From Cetobacterium somerae (GTDB lineage Bacteria; Fusobacteriota; Fusobacteriia; Fusobacteriales; Fusobacteriaceae), in NCBI RefSeq assembly GCF_022430525.1, contig NZ_CP092520.1, positions 310,001 to 374,000 of the forward strand: DNA of 64,000 nt, written 5' to 3'. The position numbers were made by a program, and so were the translations under genes. The notes beneath the pieces were generated by a model. That model had not been told where the DNA came from and made no database searches. It was given only the letters and a program-made list of their open reading frames with translations. Of this stretch, positions 1-9,343 are shown one piece after another; position 1 is the stretch's first letter, and every line of letters begins with the position of its first letter.

Positions 1-1225
1 CCTCAGGCTTTTCTTTTAAAATTTCTCTACAATTCCCTACATCTGTAGCTATAAATGGTATTCCACAAGCTAATCCTTCTAAGATACTAAGAGGTTGTCC
101 TTCTGAAATTGATGTAAGCATTAAAAAATCTAAAAATTTATAATATTCTTTTACATCTGCTCTACCAGTAAAAATAACATAATTTTTTAAATCCAAATTT
201 TCAACCAATTCTAAACATTCATTATAATATTCTTCATTTTCTTCTATTGGTCCTATTAAAAAAAGTTTTGTATTTCTAAGTTTAGGTAATGCCATTTTAA
301 ATCCTTTTAGCATCATTTTCACGTCTTTTATTGGTACAACTCTTAAAACTGAACCTATATTAAATCCTTCTCTTTTTTCTCTAATAACTTTTTCATAAGC
401 CTCAATATCAATACCATTTGGAATCACTTCACATTTTTTAAAATTTGCCCCATTTTCAATTTGTAGTTTTCTATTATATTCAAATAAAGATATTATTTTG
501 TCACATCTATCATAAGTTAATCTCGATAAAAAATAAAAAAAATCTATCCAAATTTTTTTAAAATCTTTCTCTATCCATTTAGCTCCAATAACTTCCTCTT
601 CTCTTTCACGAGGATAAATTCCGTGTTCTGTTAAAAGTAACGAGCCTCCATTTTTAAGCTTTGCAACTACTGATATATACCCAGAGTACCCCGTTGCCAC
701 AGGATGGTATATATCTGCTTTAGGTAAAGTTTCTTGAGATAGAGAAATCATATTCAAAAATATATTTCTATATGTCCAATAAAAAGTATTAAAACCTATT
801 TTACTATAATTCTCATTATAATATTTTAATAAACTATTCCAAAAACTTTTATTAATTATTATCTCTAATGGATTACCATATTTTTTATCTGATATTTTTT
901 CTATAATTTTTATGACTTCTTCAGAGTTAGTATTGTTAAAATTTAAAATTTTCTCTATATCTCCCTCTAATTTTTTGAAATCAAATCTATTTTTTAAAAC
1001 TTTAAATGGTGAAATTTCATAGTTTTTATCTAAAACTATATTTTTAATTTCTATTATATTTTTAGGTATTTCATATTTTATTTTTGCAAAATCCAAATTT
1101 GGTATTATACATACAATGGAAAATGTATGTTCCTCATTAGATTTTACTAATTCTTGAATCCATGAGGAAACTCCACCTACAACATATGGATAAGACCCTT
1201 CACATATCAAACAGATTTTTGCCAT
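1..1225 (-). CDS. pelF: PelF-like glycosyltransferase (C-terminus off the window)
   Basis: Cytosolic GT4-type glycosyltransferase that in Pel systems polymerises the Pel polysaccharide from UDP-sugars. The start is ATG at 1225 and reads MAKICLICEGSYPYVVGGVS, the characteristic PelF opening (LICEG.YPYV.GGVSSW). The reading frame stays open to base 1, giving about 408 codons, so the C-terminal end is missing. The start overlaps the end of the PelE-like gene by 19 nt, which implies translational coupling. It is the last visible gene of the Pel operon; pelG (the membrane transporter) would be expected beyond base 1. Family call is confident from the N-terminal motif and the neighbours; enzymatic role is from the family. 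Confidence 0.88.
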   Translation of the reverse strand, partial: MAKICLICEGSYPYVVGGVSSWIQELVKSNEEHTFSIVCIIPNLDFAKIKYEIPKNIIEIKNIVLDKNYEISPFKVLKNRFDFKKLEGDIEKILNFNNTNSEEVIKIIEKISDKKYGNPLEIIINKSFWNSLLKYYNENYSKIGFNTFYWTYRNIFLNMISLSQETLPKADIYHPVATGYSGYISVVAKLKNGGSLLLTEHGIYPREREEEVIGAKWIEKDFKKIWIDFFYFLSRLTYDRCDKIISLFEYNRKLQIENGANFKKCEVIPNGIDIEAYEKVIREKREGFNIGSVLRVVPIKDVKMMLKGFKMALPKLRNTKLFLIGPIEENEEYYNECLELVENLDLKNYVIFTGRADVKEYYKFLDFLMLTSISEGQPLSILEGLACGIPFIATDVGNCREILKEKPE

Positions 1226-2085
1226 CTTCTAACCTCTTTCAACATTTCATTATTATTTAAATCATAATAATATTTTTCTATAAACTCTACTGTAGTTTGA
1301 TCCAAGCTCTCATTTTTTATAATATCTTCAATAAGTTTATCGCATTCCATATAATTTTTCATATCTTTATATATATTTAAAAGATTATATTTATCTCTAG
1401 ACTCTATCTCCTTTTTAGATTTTACATAATATATATACTTTTTTTGATAAAATTCTAAAATTTCTCCAATTAAAAGTCCGGACGTACAGTAATCGTAATA
1501 TACTTCACAAATTTCATTTAAATTCTTTAGATTAGTTTTTTCTTTTATTAATTTTTGAAAATTTTCATCAATTTTATTTATCTCTGTTGCAGCATAGTGA
1601 ATAACTTCGATATCTTCATCCCATAAAGCTTTTTTTAGAACTTCAATCTTAAATTTTAAATTTTGCGTTTCAAATCCAATTAAAAAATTTTTCTTTTCTA
1701 CTGGAGTTCCAACAGCTAAAATATCATAAGCTCCTATTAAATTGAGATCAATAGAACTATTTACTATTATCTCTTTCTCTTCATTTAAAATATATTTTTC
1801 TAAATCTTCATTTATTTCAATCTCGCTTTTAAAGTAGTCTCTAAAAAATAAAAATTGATTTATTAAAATCATACAATAACCAATTACAGGAAAAATTAAA
1901 ATTAAGATGTCAAATTGCTTTTCTCCTGAAATTAATTTATTTAAATATATAAAAATTAAAGATAATGAGAAGTGGCAAATCCAAAAGTATGATCTAAAAC
2001 TTAAAACTTCATTTTTAAAATTATAAAATATTAGACTATCTAATATAAGAAATACACTTATAAATAATATATATTTTATTTTCAT
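1207..2085 (-). CDS. PelE-like membrane protein with helical repeats
   Basis: A 292-residue protein with hydrophobic segments near residues 4-22, 31-51 and 58-82, followed by a soluble, all-helical tail that looks like TPR/HEAT-type repeats (for example around residues 145-175 and 225-285). This matches the PelE layout: N-terminal membrane helices plus TPR-like repeats, acting with PelD, PelF and PelG in the inner-membrane Pel synthase. Sequence recognition alone is weak; position between the PelA-type deacetylase and pelF is the main support. Its first base is the last base of the upstream gene's stop codon (1 nt overlap), and its end overlaps pelF. Confidence 0.6.
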   Translation of the reverse strand: MKIKYILFISVFLILDSLIFYNFKNEVLSFRSYFWICHFSLSLIFIYLNKLISGEKQFDILILIFPVIGYCMILINQFLFFRDYFKSEIEINEDLEKYILNEEKEIIVNSSIDLNLIGAYDILAVGTPVEKKNFLIGFETQNLKFKIEVLKKALWDEDIEVIHYAATEINKIDENFQKLIKEKTNLKNLNEICEVYYDYCTSGLLIGEILEFYQKKYIYYVKSKKEIESRDKYNLLNIYKDMKNYMECDKLIEDIIKNESLDQTTVEFIEKYYYDLNNNEMLKEVRRWQKSV

Positions 2086-3914
2086 TATAAGTCCTCCAAT
2101 ATTATTTTAACTTCCGGCTCTTTTACTGTCACAATATAAAAAGATTCATTTTCACTAGTACTTATAAATTTAAAATCTCCACCTAAGACTTTAACTATTT
2201 TTTTATTCTTTACTTTAAAATGTGAATCAAATTTTCCTCTATAATTTTTTATATTTACCAATACCATATTATCTTTTCTTTCATATTCTACTTCGATATT
2301 TTCTATAATACTATAATCATATGTCATTTCACTTTGAATTTGTGATTTTAAAACTGGATAATTACTATTTACAGTTGAAAATATCTTTTCAAACTCTGCC
2401 TTTAACTCTTCCCAAGATTTTCCATTTCCTCTTTCTTTATCCATAATATCATCTGGATGTATAAAATGAGAAAGATACCCATACGCTCCAATAGCATTAT
2501 ATATTTGCCAAATAATTGTATCTGTATAAAAAAAACCTGAAGACATTCTAGGAAGAGAATATATATCCTTAAAATCTGGATCTCTTCCTACTTCTTGTAA
2601 AAGTAATCCAGGTTCATGTTCTCCATAAAAAATTCCACAAAATGCTTTTAATTTAGTAAATGTTTCAACTATTGCTTTTTTTCCACTTACAGGTAATAAG
2701 TTACTTGGTGCAACATAACTATAGATATTAAAATTTTCTCCATAAATATTTTTTATCTCATCTTTTGCTACTATTAATCCTTTTTTCATTGCATCAATAC
2801 TTTCCCAAGGAGTATACCCATAGTCCTCATAATCAATCTCTTTTTTCAAACCTAAAGAATAGTGATTATATCCATGTAATCCTAATTCTCCACCTACTGA
2901 CTTTAACTCTCTTCCTCTTTTACTAAGATCGTCGAATGTCTTTTTACCAACTTTAACTATTTTATCTTTAATAGTTAAATCATTATATTCTATTATAATA
3001 AATCCTGTCATTTTTAACCTTTGTCTTTCTGCAATTCCCATCATATCTTGCCACCAAATAAGATTAAAAAATTCTGAAGTATTCATTCCATATTCTTTTT
3101 TTATAATTTCATTTTGAACTACTGGAATTGGTGAGGGAAAATCATCAATTTGAAGTATTTTAGAATTTAAAATCGGAAAAAATGTAACATCCTCCACATA
3201 AGCTATAAGTTGTTTCATTATTCCTCTGAAAATTTTACCTTGAAATAGTGTAGTATTACTAAAAAATATTTTCCCCTCTCCATATTTTCTAATCCACATT
3301 AGTGGTTCATTAGTATCTGTTGTTGCTATTACATCTATATCTTTTTTTAGATCCATCTTTAGTCCAGAACTACCAAAAATAATACTTCCTGGTTTCAACT
3401 CTTTTAATCCTGGAAATATATCCTTTTTTAGATTGAAACTTTTAGTTTCAATAAATTCTCCTATTTTTTCTATACCAGCCATTTGATTAAATGGACTTCT
3501 ATATGATCTTTGAGTTATAAATAAATTTCCACCCTTTTCAATTTTATTTTTTATTCCTAAAAAATTTTCTTTTAATAATCCACTATAGTTTTCTACTGCT
3601 AAAATTATTAAACTATATTCCGAAAAATCTAATACTTCATCTGTAGAAATTGAAATAGAATCATACTTAACTTTTGAAAAATTAAAAATTTCTTCTAAAC
3701 CATTCTTTATATCTTGACTTCCTTCACTTCCATCTCCATATAAAATAAGATATTTTTCAGGTTTTTCTATTTTTAAATTTCCAGATATTGGATCAGGAAG
3801 ATTAAAATTATAAATTTGCTTTAAATTAAATAAATCTTCTAAATTTTTTATCCTTAACTCTTGAAAAAAGAATACTGTTATTAATACTAAACCTAATATA
3901 TATTTAGATTTCAT
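2085..3914 (-). CDS. Pel polysaccharide deacetylase-like protein (DUF2194/PelA deacetylase type)
   Basis: A 609-residue protein with one N-terminal membrane or signal segment (residues 4-18). Residues about 50-240 form a glutamine-amidotransferase-like/ThuA-like fold region. Residues about 250-510 form a NodB-like barrel: IDDFP at 256-260 fits the metal-binding Asp-Asp motif and HGYNHY at 347-352 the His motif. The C-terminal 90 residues look like a beta-rich domain. This is the layout of the DUF2194 proteins that supply the PelA deacetylase function in Pel clusters of Gram-positive bacteria. Partial de-N-acetylation of Pel makes it cationic. It overlaps pelD by 11 nt. The hydrolase half of canonical PelA is a separate gene at 5128-6027. 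Confidence 0.75.
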   Translation of the reverse strand: MKSKYILGLVLITVFFFQELRIKNLEDLFNLKQIYNFNLPDPISGNLKIEKPEKYLILYGDGSEGSQDIKNGLEEIFNFSKVKYDSISISTDEVLDFSEYSLIILAVENYSGLLKENFLGIKNKIEKGGNLFITQRSYRSPFNQMAGIEKIGEFIETKSFNLKKDIFPGLKELKPGSIIFGSSGLKMDLKKDIDVIATTDTNEPLMWIRKYGEGKIFFSNTTLFQGKIFRGIMKQLIAYVEDVTFFPILNSKILQIDDFPSPIPVVQNEIIKKEYGMNTSEFFNLIWWQDMMGIAERQRLKMTGFIIIEYNDLTIKDKIVKVGKKTFDDLSKRGRELKSVGGELGLHGYNHYSLGLKKEIDYEDYGYTPWESIDAMKKGLIVAKDEIKNIYGENFNIYSYVAPSNLLPVSGKKAIVETFTKLKAFCGIFYGEHEPGLLLQEVGRDPDFKDIYSLPRMSSGFFYTDTIIWQIYNAIGAYGYLSHFIHPDDIMDKERGNGKSWEELKAEFEKIFSTVNSNYPVLKSQIQSEMTYDYSIIENIEVEYERKDNMVLVNIKNYRGKFDSHFKVKNKKIVKVLGGDFKFISTSENESFYIVTVKEPEVKIILEDL

Positions 3915-5115
3915 CTATTTCAACTCCTGGAATAATTTCAGATACTCTTTTCATTAGAACTTCCTTACTCTCTTTATTAGCATTTACAAAAAGGAATTTT
4001 ATAGCTTCATTACTCATTCCAACAACATCTATATCTCTCACTTTTCCTTTCAATTTTTCATTCAACTCTTTTGGAGTAATTCCTGGATTTTCACCCTCTA
4101 AGGCTATATATTCAGATCCAAATAATTTTTTTCTTTTTTTATCCTCTTCTAATATATATGAAAAATATTGTAAATTATATATTCTTGTATTCTCGTATGA
4201 ATTTTTTAATGTTTCAATCTCTGCCTTATCAAAAGCATTTACTAAAGCGTTATTTATCCATTGACTGATTACCTTAAAAAGTTCTAATAAATATTTCTCT
4301 TGATTTCCATATTTTAATCTTTCTATATTTATAATTCCAACAACCTCTTCTCCTTTTAAAATTGGAGCTACATAGACAGGATTTTTTATATTTAAATCTC
4401 TATTTCCTTCAATAGTTTCTTTATTTTTTAAAACTTTAGAATAAATATCACCTTCTTCTACAACTATAAAATTTGGAATTATACTATTTCCAATTTTTAC
4501 TCTTGCTCTAAAGGTATTTCTTTCTTTATTATAAATATAAATTGAAACTACATCACTTCCTAAAAAATCTGTTAATATTTCTAAAATCTGAGTAAATATT
4601 TTTTCCACATTTTTAGTTAATATTGAAGATGTTATTTGATGCAAAGTTAAAATGCTCTCTTTACTTCCTACTATTCTACTTTTTAATCTTTCATTTATAT
4701 TTACTAACTCTAAATTTTTCTCTCTTTGATTTTTATTTTTCTCTTCTAATATTTTATTTTCATCCTTTAATTCATCTATTTTTTTTCTAAGATTATCTGA
4801 AAATCTTCCAAGAGATAAAGCAATAAAAAAGAAAATTAATACAAATTTATAATAATTAAAATCTAAAAAAAAGACTACTATATCATTTCCTAGCTGATAA
4901 TATGCAAGCATATAAAATAATGAAGCTATTATAACTGTTTGTAGACTAATATAAACCCCATATTTTAATGCCATTATTCCTATAATAATTGCTAATGGCT
5001 GCATATTCATATTTAAAAAATCACTTTTAAAATCTGAAAAGTAAAAAAATATTAAGTATACCCCTAAACAATATAAAATACTTTCAACTATACTTAAAAT
5101 AAATTTTTTTTTCAT
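3904..5115 (-). CDS. pelD: PelD-like c-di-GMP receptor of the Pel synthase
   Basis: A 403-residue protein with about four membrane helices in residues 7-105, a charged coiled coil at about 107-150, a GAF-like domain at about 155-300, and a C-terminal degenerate GGDEF-like domain. There is no GGDEF motif, but an RxxD inhibitory-site motif is present as RDID at residues 360-363. In P. aeruginosa PelD this site binds c-di-GMP and switches on Pel synthesis; Arg390 is a candidate for the second binding arginine. Tail and start overlap neighbours in a tight operon. Domain order, motif and context together make the call strong; c-di-GMP binding itself is inferred. Confidence 0.83.
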   Translation of the reverse strand: MKKKFILSIVESILYCLGVYLIFFYFSDFKSDFLNMNMQPLAIIIGIMALKYGVYISLQTVIIASLFYMLAYYQLGNDIVVFFLDFNYYKFVLIFFFIALSLGRFSDNLRKKIDELKDENKILEEKNKNQREKNLELVNINERLKSRIVGSKESILTLHQITSSILTKNVEKIFTQILEILTDFLGSDVVSIYIYNKERNTFRARVKIGNSIIPNFIVVEEGDIYSKVLKNKETIEGNRDLNIKNPVYVAPILKGEEVVGIINIERLKYGNQEKYLLELFKVISQWINNALVNAFDKAEIETLKNSYENTRIYNLQYFSYILEEDKKRKKLFGSEYIALEGENPGITPKELNEKLKGKVRDIDVVGMSNEAIKFLFVNANKESKEVLMKRVSEIIPGVEIDEI

Positions 5116-5127
5116 AAAATACCACCT

Positions 5128-6027
5128 CTAAAACTGTTCATAAGTGTCTATAGTGTCTAAGTAATAACCATCTACTCCTATGTCATCTAATTTCTTTTGA
5201 TAATTTTTGATAATTTTTTTCCATTGTGGACTCCAATATTTTATTATAAAATTACCCTTCCAATTTTCATTCTCTTTAACTATCCACTCAGGTAGTTTTT
5301 TATTCCAAGACGTCTGCCAATAATCTCTATAATTTTCTGCCTCTCCTATACTAAAGTAAGCAATTATCAATCTTCGGGTTCCATTTTTTCTTATTTTTAA
5401 AGAATCAATTTGTTCTTTTGTCAAAAATTTACCATTTAAACTAGGTTCTATAATTAATAAATCAAAATCTGTATTCTTTAAAACTCTATAATAATCATCT
5501 ATATTTTTAAATTTTTCAGGATTTAAAAGATATAAAAAATTTTTAACTTCCTTTAAGTTAGTTACATTTTTTAAACTATTTTTTTGAAGAGGTTGAAAAA
5601 TACTATTAGCACTATACGATGGAACTGCCTCTCCTATAAAATTATATTTTCGTGTATCTTTTAAAATTTTATTTCTAAGATTTTTAGCATTGGCATAATT
5701 TACTGAGAGTACAACTTTTCCCTCTTTTTCTATTTCGATTAAATTCTTTAAAAGATAATTTTTTTCATCTTCAGGAGTCTCTTCATTTATACCTCCCACT
5801 CCATAAAATAGTGATTCTTGTGAAACGCCTTCTACATTTTTTATAAAAATCTTATCCAATTTATCTCCATTAAAAAAAATATTAGTTCCATTTTGTGGCA
5901 CTAATATTTTTTCTTTGGATTGGATTTTTATTTGTTCAATAAGCTCTCTCATTTTATTTTTACTAATTTCATCACCTTTTATAAAAGATACAAATGAAAT
6001 AAATAGGAAAACTATGATTTTTTTCAT
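5128..6027 (-). CDS. Exported GH114/PelA-hydrolase-type glycosidase, apparently circularly permuted
   Basis: A 299-residue exported protein (signal peptide in residues 1-18). I chose ATG 6027 over an in-frame ATG at 6039 because GGAGAG sits 6-7 nt upstream of it. All conserved GH114/TM1410-family blocks are present but in unusual order: PQNG (44-47), ESLFYG (71-76) and GKVVLSVNY (103-111) come first, then DLLIIEPS (189-196), SIGEAENYRDYW (226-237), NFIIKYWSPQW (259-269) and GYYLDTIDTYE (287-297), where the protein ends. In the family as I know it the second set precedes the first. Likely cleaves alpha-1,4-galactosaminoglycan such as Pel. The conserved acids would be Glu71 and Asp291. It lies 12 nt upstream of pelD. 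Confidence 0.78.
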   Translation of the reverse strand: MKKIIVFLFISFVSFIKGDEISKNKMRELIEQIKIQSKEKILVPQNGTNIFFNGDKLDKIFIKNVEGVSQESLFYGVGGINEETPEDEKNYLLKNLIEIEKEGKVVLSVNYANAKNLRNKILKDTRKYNFIGEAVPSYSANSIFQPLQKNSLKNVTNLKEVKNFLYLLNPEKFKNIDDYYRVLKNTDFDLLIIEPSLNGKFLTKEQIDSLKIRKNGTRRLIIAYFSIGEAENYRDYWQTSWNKKLPEWIVKENENWKGNFIIKYWSPQWKKIIKNYQKKLDDIGVDGYYLDTIDTYEQF

Positions 6028-6047
6028 AAATCTCTCCATCCTTAAAA

Positions 6048-7334
6048 TTAATAGTTTTTTAATAACTTCTCTAAATAAACTGACTTCATCTGTTTGCTCG
6101 CCATAATCTTATGAACAGGAGATAGTTTTAAAATTGCTCCAAGTATAGCTGCCATAGCTCTATGACTAAACAAAGCTTTATTATCAAAAATTAACTCTTG
6201 AAGCATTCCTTTTTCTATAGCCATCAAAACTGATCTATGAACAGAGTTTATCGGAGTTATTACTCTTGTTTCACGAGGCATTAATAATATACTACTTTTA
6301 GGACAAGCTCTTCCACATACACCACATCCTAAACACAGCTCTTCTTGAACTACATATTCACTTTCTACTTTCTTTATTGCATTAACTGGGCAAACTTTTA
6401 AACACTTTCCACAGCTTACACATGTATCATGATTTATTTTAGGAATAAAATTTGTTGTTTCTACAGGATGCATCATCCCAAATTTTTTAGCCGCTACTAA
6501 AGCTTCGCAGCAACATCCACAACAATTACAAATAAATGTTACTCCTTCTCTAACATTTTCACCACATTGAACTAAATTACTATCATATGCTTGCTGAAGT
6601 AAGTCCATTCCTTCTATTTTATCAACTCTTCTTGCGTACCCGTTATTTATTAAAGAGTTTGCTACATTTCCAAAAGTCATACAAATATCCATTGGTGCAT
6701 CACAAGCTTTTCCCACATGTTGCATCTTGTGTCTGCAATAGCACATACTAATCCCCATATGATCTGATGTTTCTATTATATGGGAAGCTTTTTCATAATC
6801 TAAAACTTGAACTAAATTGTCTAAAGTATTTGAAGACATAGTTTTTTGCGCTTCTCTAGTTTTTTCTAGGGCATCTTCATTTATAAAAACTCTTCCTAAT
6901 TTTGTCTCAGAACTATAAAAAAGATCTTTTATAAAATCCTCTTCTACATTCATATACTGGTATAAAAGTTCACCTAAAAGTTTTTGATCAATATCTCCTC
7001 TAGTTCTCATCATAGAGAACTCTATAAATCCAGCCATTGGTGGTGGTAATATATAAGTTTGAACCCCTTTATGTATAGTATCTAATAAAATCGCTCTTGA
7101 TGCTAATGTATCCAAAATATTTTTAGCATCTTTTTCTGATATCTTCCAAATTGACGCTGCTTTTTTTACTGTAAAGGGTTTTATTGGAAGTTGTGCTACT
7201 AACTCTGCCTCTTTTTCTGAAAATAGTATCGCTAGTATATCATATAAGACTTTAGATGGTGGTGCTCCTTGAGGAAATCTATTCAGTCTCTCCTCTAAAC
7301 TTTTATATGCTGACTTACCTACAATATGGCTCAT
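6048..7334 (-). CDS. Winged-helix and 4Fe-4S ferredoxin-domain protein
   Basis: A 428-residue cytosolic protein. Residues about 25-95 look like a winged helix (helical, with VKKAASIWKISEKDAKNIL as a candidate recognition region). A cysteine group follows at CYC (198-200), CDAPMDIC (211-218) and the unusual CNCCGCCCE cluster (269-277), then two clear 4Fe-4S motifs, CVSCGKCLKVCP (305-316) and CLGCGVCGRACP (334-345). This resembles uncharacterised 4Fe-4S dicluster proteins of anaerobes; substrate and partner are unknown. It lies 20 nt upstream of the Pel hydrolase gene and 20 nt downstream of an EamA transporter, so read-through into the pel genes is possible. Confidence 0.7.
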   Translation of the reverse strand: MSHIVGKSAYKSLEERLNRFPQGAPPSKVLYDILAILFSEKEAELVAQLPIKPFTVKKAASIWKISEKDAKNILDTLASRAILLDTIHKGVQTYILPPPMAGFIEFSMMRTRGDIDQKLLGELLYQYMNVEEDFIKDLFYSSETKLGRVFINEDALEKTREAQKTMSSNTLDNLVQVLDYEKASHIIETSDHMGISMCYCRHKMQHVGKACDAPMDICMTFGNVANSLINNGYARRVDKIEGMDLLQQAYDSNLVQCGENVREGVTFICNCCGCCCEALVAAKKFGMMHPVETTNFIPKINHDTCVSCGKCLKVCPVNAIKKVESEYVVQEELCLGCGVCGRACPKSSILLMPRETRVITPINSVHRSVLMAIEKGMLQELIFDNKALFSHRAMAAILGAILKLSPVHKIMASKQMKSVYLEKLLKNY

Positions 7335-7354
7335 GTTTTCCTCCTAATTAACTT

Positions 7355-8218
7355 TTATCGTTTTTTGACTTCTGTTAATAGTATAGATGTAAAAATCAGT
7401 AATCCACCTATTATAACTTGAAAAGTCATCTTATCTCCCAATAGTAAAACAGAGAATAGTGCTCCAAATATTATCTCTGTTGTTAAAATTAAAGAAACTT
7501 GACTAGGATTAATCTCTTTTTGAGCATACGTTTGAATTGAATAACAGATGAAAGTATTAAAAAGAATTATATATACTAAGGCCAAAATCTGTTTTAATTC
7601 ATATGTTCTAGTAAAGATTGTTGCTCCTTCAAATATTATATTCAGCAAGATACCAATAATTCCTGCTGAAAACATTTGAAAACCATTAATCGTAAAGGGA
7701 TTTTTATTTTTTATCCGACTTCCTATAACTACGATTTGAAGTGCAAAGCATATCGCACATATAAATGTTAAAAAATCTCCAAAATTAATCGTTAAATTTT
7801 TTTCAAAAGAAAGAAATCCTATCCCTATAAAACACAGAATAGATGATAGTATATAAATTAATTTTGGCTTCTCTTTTGTAATGATCCATACAATATATGG
7901 TACAAAAATAACATTTGCCCCAGTTATAAAGGCATTTTTAGATGAAGTTGTGTAAACCAATCCAACCGTTTGAAAAGCAAAAGCTGAAAATAAAATTAAA
8001 CCAGCTATTAAACCTAAATTTTTTTCTGTTTTTTCAATTTTTATTTTTTTTACTCTCATAATACAAAACATAACTACTGCCGTTATAAAAAATCTTATAC
8101 CTAAAAACTCAAATGGCTTTATGCCACTATCTAAAATTATTTTCGTAGCTGGAAATCCACTTCCCCAAATCATGGCAACTAAAAGCAATAATAATTTACT
8201 AAAGTTTTCTTTTTTCAT
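7355..8218 (-). CDS. EamA/DMT-family transporter
   Basis: A 287-residue integral membrane protein with about ten hydrophobic helices and the two-fold repeat of the drug/metabolite transporter superfamily; the opening MIWGSGFPATKIIL is typical of EamA proteins. It probably exports or imports a small metabolite, but the substrate cannot be read from sequence. It begins just after the minE terminator and ends 20 nt before the iron-sulfur gene. A GGGGGAT ribosome binding site lies 5-6 nt before the ATG. No convincing promoter was found between it and minE. Confidence 0.85.
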   Translation of the reverse strand: MKKENFSKLLLLLVAMIWGSGFPATKIILDSGIKPFEFLGIRFFITAVVMFCIMRVKKIKIEKTEKNLGLIAGLILFSAFAFQTVGLVYTTSSKNAFITGANVIFVPYIVWIITKEKPKLIYILSSILCFIGIGFLSFEKNLTINFGDFLTFICAICFALQIVVIGSRIKNKNPFTINGFQMFSAGIIGILLNIIFEGATIFTRTYELKQILALVYIILFNTFICYSIQTYAQKEINPSQVSLILTTEIIFGALFSVLLLGDKMTFQVIIGGLLIFTSILLTEVKKR

Positions 8219-8261
8219 TTTTATCCCCCTGTATTATTTAATTTTTCTCCCCTAACCTATC

Positions 8262-8293
8262 AAAAAAAAATAGCACCGTAGTACTATTTTTTT
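8262..8293 (-). terminator. Intrinsic terminator of minCDE overlapping the minE stop
   Basis: On the minus strand an A-rich stem ends in TAGTAC, loop TACG, then GTGCTA and a run of nine T. The six-pair core contains one G-U pair and is closed by C-G around TACG, a UNCG-type stable tetraloop. The TAG stop codon of minE is part of the stem. Confidence 0.85.
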
Positions 8294-8538
8294 ATTTTTA
8301 TAGGTATATTCGCTATCAGTGCTGTTTCTCTTCCCGTTTCCGCTTCTTGAGAAACTTCAATATTTAAAGAATCCCTATCTATATCTACATACTTAGATAT
8401 TACTGCAATTATCTCATCTTTTAAAGTTTCAAGCATTTTGGGAGAAAGCATAGCTCTATCATGTATCAGTACTAACTTCAAACGGTCTTTAGCTACTGAA
8501 CTAGATTTTTCTTTATTCAAAAAACTAAAAAATCCCAT
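8284..8538 (-). CDS. minE: Cell division topological specificity factor MinE
   Basis: An 84-residue protein, the usual MinE length. The N-terminus MGFFSFLNKEKSS is the amphipathic membrane-targeting segment; residues 18-32 (AKDRLKLVLIHDRAM) are the MinD-activating stretch that competes with MinC; the rest is the dimerising topological-specificity domain. MinE stimulates MinD ATPase at the membrane and drives pole-to-pole oscillation so that the division ring forms at mid-cell. It is the last gene of minC-minD-minE, 13 nt after minD. The presence of MinE rather than DivIVA-only control fits a diderm-type Min system. Confidence 0.95.
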   Translation of the reverse strand: MGFFSFLNKEKSSSVAKDRLKLVLIHDRAMLSPKMLETLKDEIIAVISKYVDIDRDSLNIEVSQEAETGRETALIANIPIKIKK

Positions 8539-8551
8539 ATTTCGCCTCCCC

Positions 8552-9343
8552 TTATTTTTTAAATATCTCTTTTATCTTATCAAAAAAACCAACTTTAGGA
8601 TCTAAATCTAAAAATTCAACATTTTGTCCAAGTGTTCTTGAAGCTATATTTACATATGCTCTAGCTGCTAAAGATTCTCCTCTATATACTAAAGGTTCAC
8701 CTTTATTTGTAGATATAACTATATTTTCATCATCTGGAACTATTCCTATAGGTTTAATTCCTAAAATATCTGTTACATCATCAACACTTAACATATTTCC
8801 ATCTTTAACCATTTCTACTCTTAAACGATTAACTATTAGTTTTGGATTTCTAATTTCATTTGCTTCTAACAATCCAATAATACGATCTGCATCTCTAACT
8901 GCAGAAATTTCTGGTGTTGTTACAACGTAAGCTTCTTCTGCGGCTGCGATAGCATTTTTAAATCCTTGCTCTATTCCTGCTGGACAATCAACTAATACAA
9001 AATCATATTCAGCTTTTAATATTTCAATTAATTCTCTCATTTGCTCTGGAGTTACAGCATTCTTATCTCTTGATTGAGCTGCTGGCAATAAATGCAAGTT
9101 ATCATTTCTTTTATCTTTTATTATAGCTTGCTTAGGTTTACAAACTCCTTCTATCACATCTATTAAATCATAAACTATTCTATTTTCTAATCCCATAACA
9201 ACATCTAAATTTCTTAAACCTATATCTGTATCAATTAATAGCGTCTTTTGATTTTGCATAGCTAGTGCTGCACCTAAGTTCGCACTACTTGTCGTTTTCC
9301 CTACTCCACCTTTTCCTGAAGTAATTACTATAACTTTTCCCAT
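8552..9343 (-). CDS. minD: Septum site-determining ATPase MinD
   Basis: A 263-residue ParA/MinD-family ATPase. The deviant Walker A motif GKGGVGKTT starts at residue 10, the switch region is LLIDTDIGLRNLDVVMG, and Walker B is FVLVDCPAG. The C-terminal FFDKIKEIFKK is the amphipathic helix that anchors ATP-bound MinD dimers to the membrane. MinD recruits MinC to block FtsZ assembly and is displaced by MinE. It sits 19 nt after minC. All expected motifs are intact. Confidence 0.96.
   Translation of the reverse strand: MGKVIVITSGKGGVGKTTSSANLGAALAMQNQKTLLIDTDIGLRNLDVVMGLENRIVYDLIDVIEGVCKPKQAIIKDKRNDNLHLLPAAQSRDKNAVTPEQMRELIEILKAEYDFVLVDCPAGIEQGFKNAIAAAEEAYVVTTPEISAVRDADRIIGLLEANEIRNPKLIVNRLRVEMVKDGNMLSVDDVTDILGIKPIGIVPDDENIVISTNKGEPLVYRGESLAARAYVNIASRTLGQNVEFLDLDPKVGFFDKIKEIFKK

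Follow-up and report, generated by a model that had tools for sequence, protein, structure and literature searches.

The enzymes closest in sequence and structure to the gene described here belong to glycoside hydrolase (GH) family GH191, which includes TM1410 of Thermotoga maritima (TmGH191; PDB 2aam, 9eux and 9euz) and Env-GH191 (9ep5). TmGH191 has the catalytic residues Asp156 and Glu225 and a tryptophan, Trp121, on a flexible loop; Env-GH191 cleaves the galactosamine polymer Pel (PMC12054363). The GH166 hydrolases, among them Pseudomonas PelA and Bacillus cereus PelAH, share the barrel fold, a Pel-operon setting and, probably, the substrate; B. cereus PelAH acts on self-made Pel and its loss raises biofilm mass (PMC7112168). 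GH114 (PF03537), with Ega3 and FsGH114, is of the same fold class. The characterised GH114, GH135, GH166 and GH191 enzymes all have the canonical order of the barrel, beta1 to beta8. In a stretch of 64,000 nucleotides from Cetobacterium somerae, a bacterium of the fish-gut type (the window; contig NZ_CP092520.1, positions 310,001 to 374,000), a GH191-type gene encodes the two halves of this barrel in swapped order. To our knowledge, few natural circular permutations have been documented for catalytic TIM barrels, the GH70 glucansucrases being the known case among glycoside hydrolases. These are permuted relative to GH13 and start at alpha3 (PMC11046441), but GH70 is an unrelated family of large multidomain alpha-glucan enzymes with another cut point. 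No description of a permuted galactosaminidase or GH191 enzyme was found in the open-access papers searched.

The initial annotation held that the conserved GH114/TM1410 blocks occur in swapped order, and this is confirmed by sequence comparison. Searched with phmmer against PDB sequences, residues 187–302 match TM1410 35–149 while residues 29–117 match TM1410 168–250 (residue numbers throughout refer to the 303-residue reading that starts at 6039), the two stretches having i-Evalues of about 3e-20 and 4e-4. Overall E-values are 1.5e-26 to TM1410 and 5e-10 to 9ep5. The TIGR01370 profile is also matched in two stretches (E 1.3e-40; 139 bits, below the curated cut-off of 181). PF03537 covers only residues 208–301, aligned to profile positions 29–119 of 231, because the other half of the protein is displaced; the match is above the Pfam cut-off, and against a canonical gene (L133) profile positions 14–228 are matched. 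Neither profile gave a collinear full-length match. In local alignments to six canonical relatives the swapped halves reached z-scores of 27–42 for the large half and 8–14 for the small half, the exception being the short half against canonical L028 (z 1.5); halves in the same order scored 22–45 in the same test. When canonical relatives are cut after beta5 and the tail is rejoined to the head, they align end to end with the permuted sequences; the linker then lies between the tail ('GYVPYCTVRNL') and the head ('SWNDANDFVYQLQ') of the canonical sequences. The rotated canonical sequence thus aligns over its whole length and the order is fixed across orthologues, as in a natural circular permutation.

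Residues 24–117 contain alpha5, beta6 with PQNG, beta7 with QESLFYG (including E75), alpha7 and beta8 with VVLSVNY; residues 168–303 contain beta1 to beta5 with FDLLIIEPS, YFSIGEAENYRDYW and GYYLDTIDTYE. The protein shares with GH191 the catalytic Asp and Glu, a Trp aligned with the loop Trp and the motifs PQNG, GEAE..YR.YW and YLD. It differs from that family in that alpha5–beta8 come first and beta1–beta5 last, in the signal peptide before alpha5 and in its TIGR01370 score below cut-off. Since the canonical beta1 to beta8 order is absent, the protein is filed as a permuted relative and not as an ordinary GH191 member. The earlier assignment as GH114-type stands as regards fold class and the PF03537 match, but the precise family is GH191 (TM1410) and not GH114 proper, whose characterised members are canonical.

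An AlphaFold2 model built on an alignment of 11 sequences gave one closed (beta/alpha)8 barrel, with a mean predicted local distance difference test (pLDDT) score of 81.3 and a predicted template modelling score (pTM) of 0.83. The strand order is a5-b6-b7-b8-b1-b2-b3-b4-b5, and the full series of elements is alpha5, beta6, beta7, alpha7, beta8, alpha8, beta1, alpha1, beta2, alpha2, beta3, beta4, alpha4, beta5. The first half comprises helices (H) and strands (E) at H24–41, E45–49, E71–75, H90–105 and E109–115, and the second runs from E168–171 to E291–295. The expectation that a new junction near residues 140–160 would close the barrel agrees with the model, in which pLDDT falls below 50 at 143–146 and 148–153, making the linker (143–153) uncertain. 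The top Foldseek match is T. maritima GH191 (E 9e-9, 33% identity), over only 143 columns in a sequential alignment, whereas unrelated TIM barrels align across model residues 40–303. A canonical control (L029), modelled poorly (pLDDT 55) and used solely for the full-length alignment, can be aligned with TM1410 across 270 columns. A half-length alignment to GH191 beside full-length alignments to unrelated barrels is as predicted for circular permutation of a complete barrel. PelA (5tcb) also matches only half of the model. The VIA-align list contains unrelated TIM barrels only, and the absence of GH191 from that list is uninformative.

In the phmmer alignment Asp156, Glu225 and Trp121 of TM1410 map to D295, E75 and W260. 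Both catalytic residues are invariant, D295 and E75 each being conserved in all permuted (41/41) and all canonical (32/32) rows, and they lie at the ends of the model strands 291–295 (beta5) and 71–75 (beta7). Tryptophan occupies the position of W260 in 40/41 permuted rows, although the model is weak around 231–262, the beta3 insertion. This conservation bears on whether the protein is still an enzyme. That it might only bind the polymer could be argued from TM1410, itself inactive on the tested substrate (PMC12054363), but the retention of both catalytic residues and, nearly always, of the loop tryptophan makes a purely binding protein very unlikely.

The swapped form was found in about 50 sampled species from four phyla. 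In Fusobacteriota the permuted gene is present in 29 of 98 species genomes, so that orthologues of the same order, which the initial annotation proposed to look for, do exist in related genomes. One further genome has a broken permuted copy, and a canonical GH191 occurs in two genomes of a single genus. Among 296 sampled Bacteroidota genomes, 19 of the 21 with a match have the permuted order. Planctomycetota have one permuted gene, their remaining matches being canonical. In Clostridia the form occurs only in a Eubacterium metagenome-assembled genome (MAG), as two copies adjoining a full pel operon; no further permuted genes were found among 348 genomes of that MAG's family. The phylum to which a Candidatus Eremiobacterota MAG belongs gave canonical matches only, and the one match on viral contigs is also canonical. 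The initial annotation had named routine occurrence of this order in the family as grounds against a permutation. The order proves usual in Fusobacteriota and the sampled Bacteroidota, and so is not unique, but it is absent from the structurally characterised members.

Two of these loci have features of their own. In the genome with the broken copy (L020:280-1377, G045) the permuted gene is interrupted by an open reading frame resembling a TnpB-type (IS605) gene. In the Eubacterium MAG (RGIG2473; L026:6639-10181) the two permuted barrels lie next to each other after the full pel operon, the first following a DUF4832-bearing domain in a fused protein, an arrangement shared with the Streptococcus SIR_1591 hydrolase.

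An assembly error, or a recent local rearrangement of an ordinary GH191 gene, might be suspected, given that the order is unusual among characterised family members. Against this, the same order recurs in unrelated assemblies across the 29 Fusobacteriota, 19 Bacteroidota, the planctomycete and the Eubacterium MAG, and also on a complete C. somerae replicon. Moreover, nonsynonymous divergence (dN) is clearly lower than synonymous divergence (dS) in both halves (five genomes of the Cetobacterium group), indicating purifying selection on each. The initial annotation had reached the same view from the intact frame and ribosome-binding site, and such a site is indeed read upstream of the 6027 ATG. 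The orthologues refute an artefact, which is now exceedingly improbable.

In a GH191 tree from which the junction columns and the GH166-like outgroup were excluded, permuted and canonical sequences separate on one branch (100/97, in all bootstrap trees), so a single origin suffices. One careful tree nested the permuted clade within canonical GH191 (99/90, with L056 and L101 as sisters), but this placement was not retained, the alternative not being rejected in the approximately unbiased (AU) test (p 0.594). GH166-like genes group apart in the trees. With a larger canonical set the distant GH166-like outgroup attaches inside the permuted rows, a placement that we read as long-branch attraction together with profile bias. 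The permuted order would be derived, because the GH114, GH135, GH166 and solved GH191 enzymes are canonical; this is an argument from parsimony only, with the root not settled.

The permutation may have arisen by tandem duplication followed by loss of the outer halves. Tandem whole barrels do occur in the superfamily, which makes passage through a duplicate feasible: one protein of 775 residues (L173, G1373) has two canonical GH191 barrels, and a 954-residue frame (L065/L073, G343) has several GH166-like barrels. The latter had been labelled permuted automatically, a label rejected in favour of tandem canonical barrels. Among the sampled relatives, no tandem duplicate directly ancestral to the permuted clade was found. 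This counts against such a route and lends some weight to another, in which separate half-barrel genes were newly joined rather than one gene rotated. However, for both halves the best matches among the sequences compared are to GH191, the linker reads as a canonical tail followed by a canonical head, and the tandem barrels leave rotation through a duplicate open; joining of half-barrels is thus considered very unlikely.

The permuted gene stands first in a minus-strand operon, followed by pelD, pelA_DA, the pelE-position gene, pelF, pelG and then a 308-residue protein (Table 1). Both pelF and pelG bear these names in the RefSeq annotation of C. somerae. The proposal that the hydrolase lies in a Pel operon is upheld by Pfam matches to GAF, DUF2194, DUF3492 with glycosyltransferase, and PelG, and the locus would carry the full pel gene set, with pelE assigned by position only. 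It resembles the Gram-positive pelDEADAFG operons (PMC7112168) in gene set and in that the hydrolase is encoded apart from the deacetylase, but differs in having a permuted GH191 as hydrolase and a Gram-negative fusobacterium as host. Of 98 Fusobacteriota genomes, 24 have pelG above cut-off; 21 of these have the permuted gene, in two the operon holds a canonical GH191 instead, and the last has neither. In 19 of the 21 the permuted gene and pelG share a contig and lie within about 8 kb of each other; in the other two they are on split contigs. Without pelG the permuted gene occurs in 9 of 74 genomes, one of the nine copies being broken (Fisher 1.6e-11 against 21 of 24).

Table 1. Features of the permuted hydrolase gene and the adjoining pel genes (window coordinates)
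Feature	Position	Strand	Description	Basis
Permuted GH191-type hydrolase, coding sequence	5128..6027	-	299 aa; 303 aa if begun at 6039	Open reading frame and translation
Ribosome-binding site	6032..6037	-	GGAGAG, 4 nt ahead of the 6027 ATG	Read from sequence
Signal peptide-like N-terminus	5974..6027	-	MKKIIVFLFISFVSFIKG, residues 5–22	Sequence; low pLDDT at 1–21
Equivalent of the canonical C-terminal half	5689..5970	-	Residues 24–117	High-scoring segment pair (HSP) to TM1410 168–250; model elements
Junction, old C-terminus to old N-terminus	5539..5688	-	alpha8 and linker, residues 118–167	Rotated alignment; low pLDDT
Equivalent of the canonical N-terminal half	5131..5538	-	Residues 168–303	HSP to TM1410 35–149; model elements
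E75, predicted general acid/base	5815..5817	-	Tm Glu225	TM1410 alignment; PMC12054363 numbering
D295, predicted nucleophile	5155..5157	-	Tm Asp156	TM1410 alignment; PMC12054363 numbering
pelD-like gene	3904..5115	-	GAF domain; next after hydrolase gene, gap 12 nt	Pfam GAF_3, GAF
pelA_DA-like gene	2085..3914	-	DUF2194	PF09960, E 2.5e-93
pelE-position gene	1207..2085	-	292 aa; no Pfam match	Position; conservation in other pel loci
pelF	1..1225	-	470 aa; continues past window	PF11997 (DUF3492) and glycosyltransferase matches
pelG	outside window, after pelF (L030:5692-7809)	-	705 aa	PF16933, E 1.6e-125

The start at the 6027 ATG is the annotated start of C. somerae WP_040406902.1, a 91%-identical protein whose RefSeq product name is 'endo alpha-1,4 polygalactosaminidase'. 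In another C. somerae assembly (NZ_CP143320.1, L178) a 664-kb circular replicon named plasmid p1 carries both the pel operon and minCDE, which suggests that p1 is a chromid; the corresponding region of the window is 5128–9343, and the window's contig has 704,842 bases. In one fusobacterial genus (L042:3348-8776 and L043; G013, G026) a canonical GH191 occupies the operon slot of the permuted gene. In a PelG tree these canonical-hydrolase operons fall beside permuted ones (98/99; root uncertain), which suggests that the hydrolase was exchanged inside the operon. Fusobacterial PelG is extended at its C-terminus by a segment that has a lipobox-like LFLSGC and GYN.EG-type repeats; the open frames in relatives range from 526 to 1053 residues. 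The 308-residue protein after pelG (L030:4785-5711, outside the window) has a signal-like start, is conserved beside pelG in Fusobacteriaceae and has no Pfam match; it could be an outer-membrane barrel. In a fusobacterial relative (G049:C3:10208-15023; L160, L165, L050) the permuted hydrolase gene is intact but the pelG next to it is frame-broken, which would fit a decaying operon.

The gene very probably encodes a secreted hydrolase of the endo-alpha-1,4-galactosaminidase type, a GH191 enzyme with a circularly permuted barrel that is likely to act on the Pel of its own operon. The chain would run from the signal peptide through alpha5, beta6 to beta8, the linker and beta1 to beta5, ending just past the strand of the catalytic Asp. 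The eight strands are predicted to close into the usual barrel, so that Glu75 and Asp295 would come together at the C-terminal face, as they do in TM1410. The analogy with B. cereus PelAH and Env-GH191 points to endo-cleavage of exported, partly deacetylated Pel as the likeliest activity, and the role would most likely be to trim or clip this polymer. In F. nucleatum TDC 100 co-culture, expression of pelF, pelG and an 'endo alpha-1,4 polygalactosaminidase' falls together (PMC9848294); judging from a match in F. vincentii, this last gene is probably the permuted one.

Several points weigh against this assignment. TmGH191, the best-studied relative, is inactive on GAG oligomers (PMC12054363), the model draws on 11 sequences only, several of them fragments, with low confidence in the beta3 insertion, nine Fusobacteriota that lack pelG have the permuted gene (one copy broken), and pel genes do not adjoin most of the Bacteroidota copies examined. 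The last two, together with the cross-kingdom activity of GH166 PelAH (PMC12054363), would fit a genuine permuted enzyme whose main job is to degrade galactosamine-rich polymers of other microbes or of hosts, many Bacteroidota copies being orphans. Yet in the window's own family nearly every genome with pelG has the gene inside the pel operon, in a setting that resembles that of PelAH, which is active on self-made Pel in B. cereus (PMC7112168). A mainly foreign target therefore seems rather improbable, although genomes without pelG may use the enzyme in this way. Action on the operon's own Pel remains the preferred role. A further, tentative possibility, given about the same modest chance as a foreign target, is that the permuted clade is a separate subfamily with its own substrate preference, kept by selection for the new ends; these may help with export, with anchoring or with contacts to partners in the Pel machine, or allow the catalytic Asp strand to be made last.

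The permuted enzyme is compact, single-domain and widespread, and profile-based annotation detects only half of such a protein. As a canonical relative fills the same operon slot in related bacteria, the two topologies can be compared for folding, export and Pel cleavage. Pel hydrolases are, in turn, of interest for biofilm dispersal.
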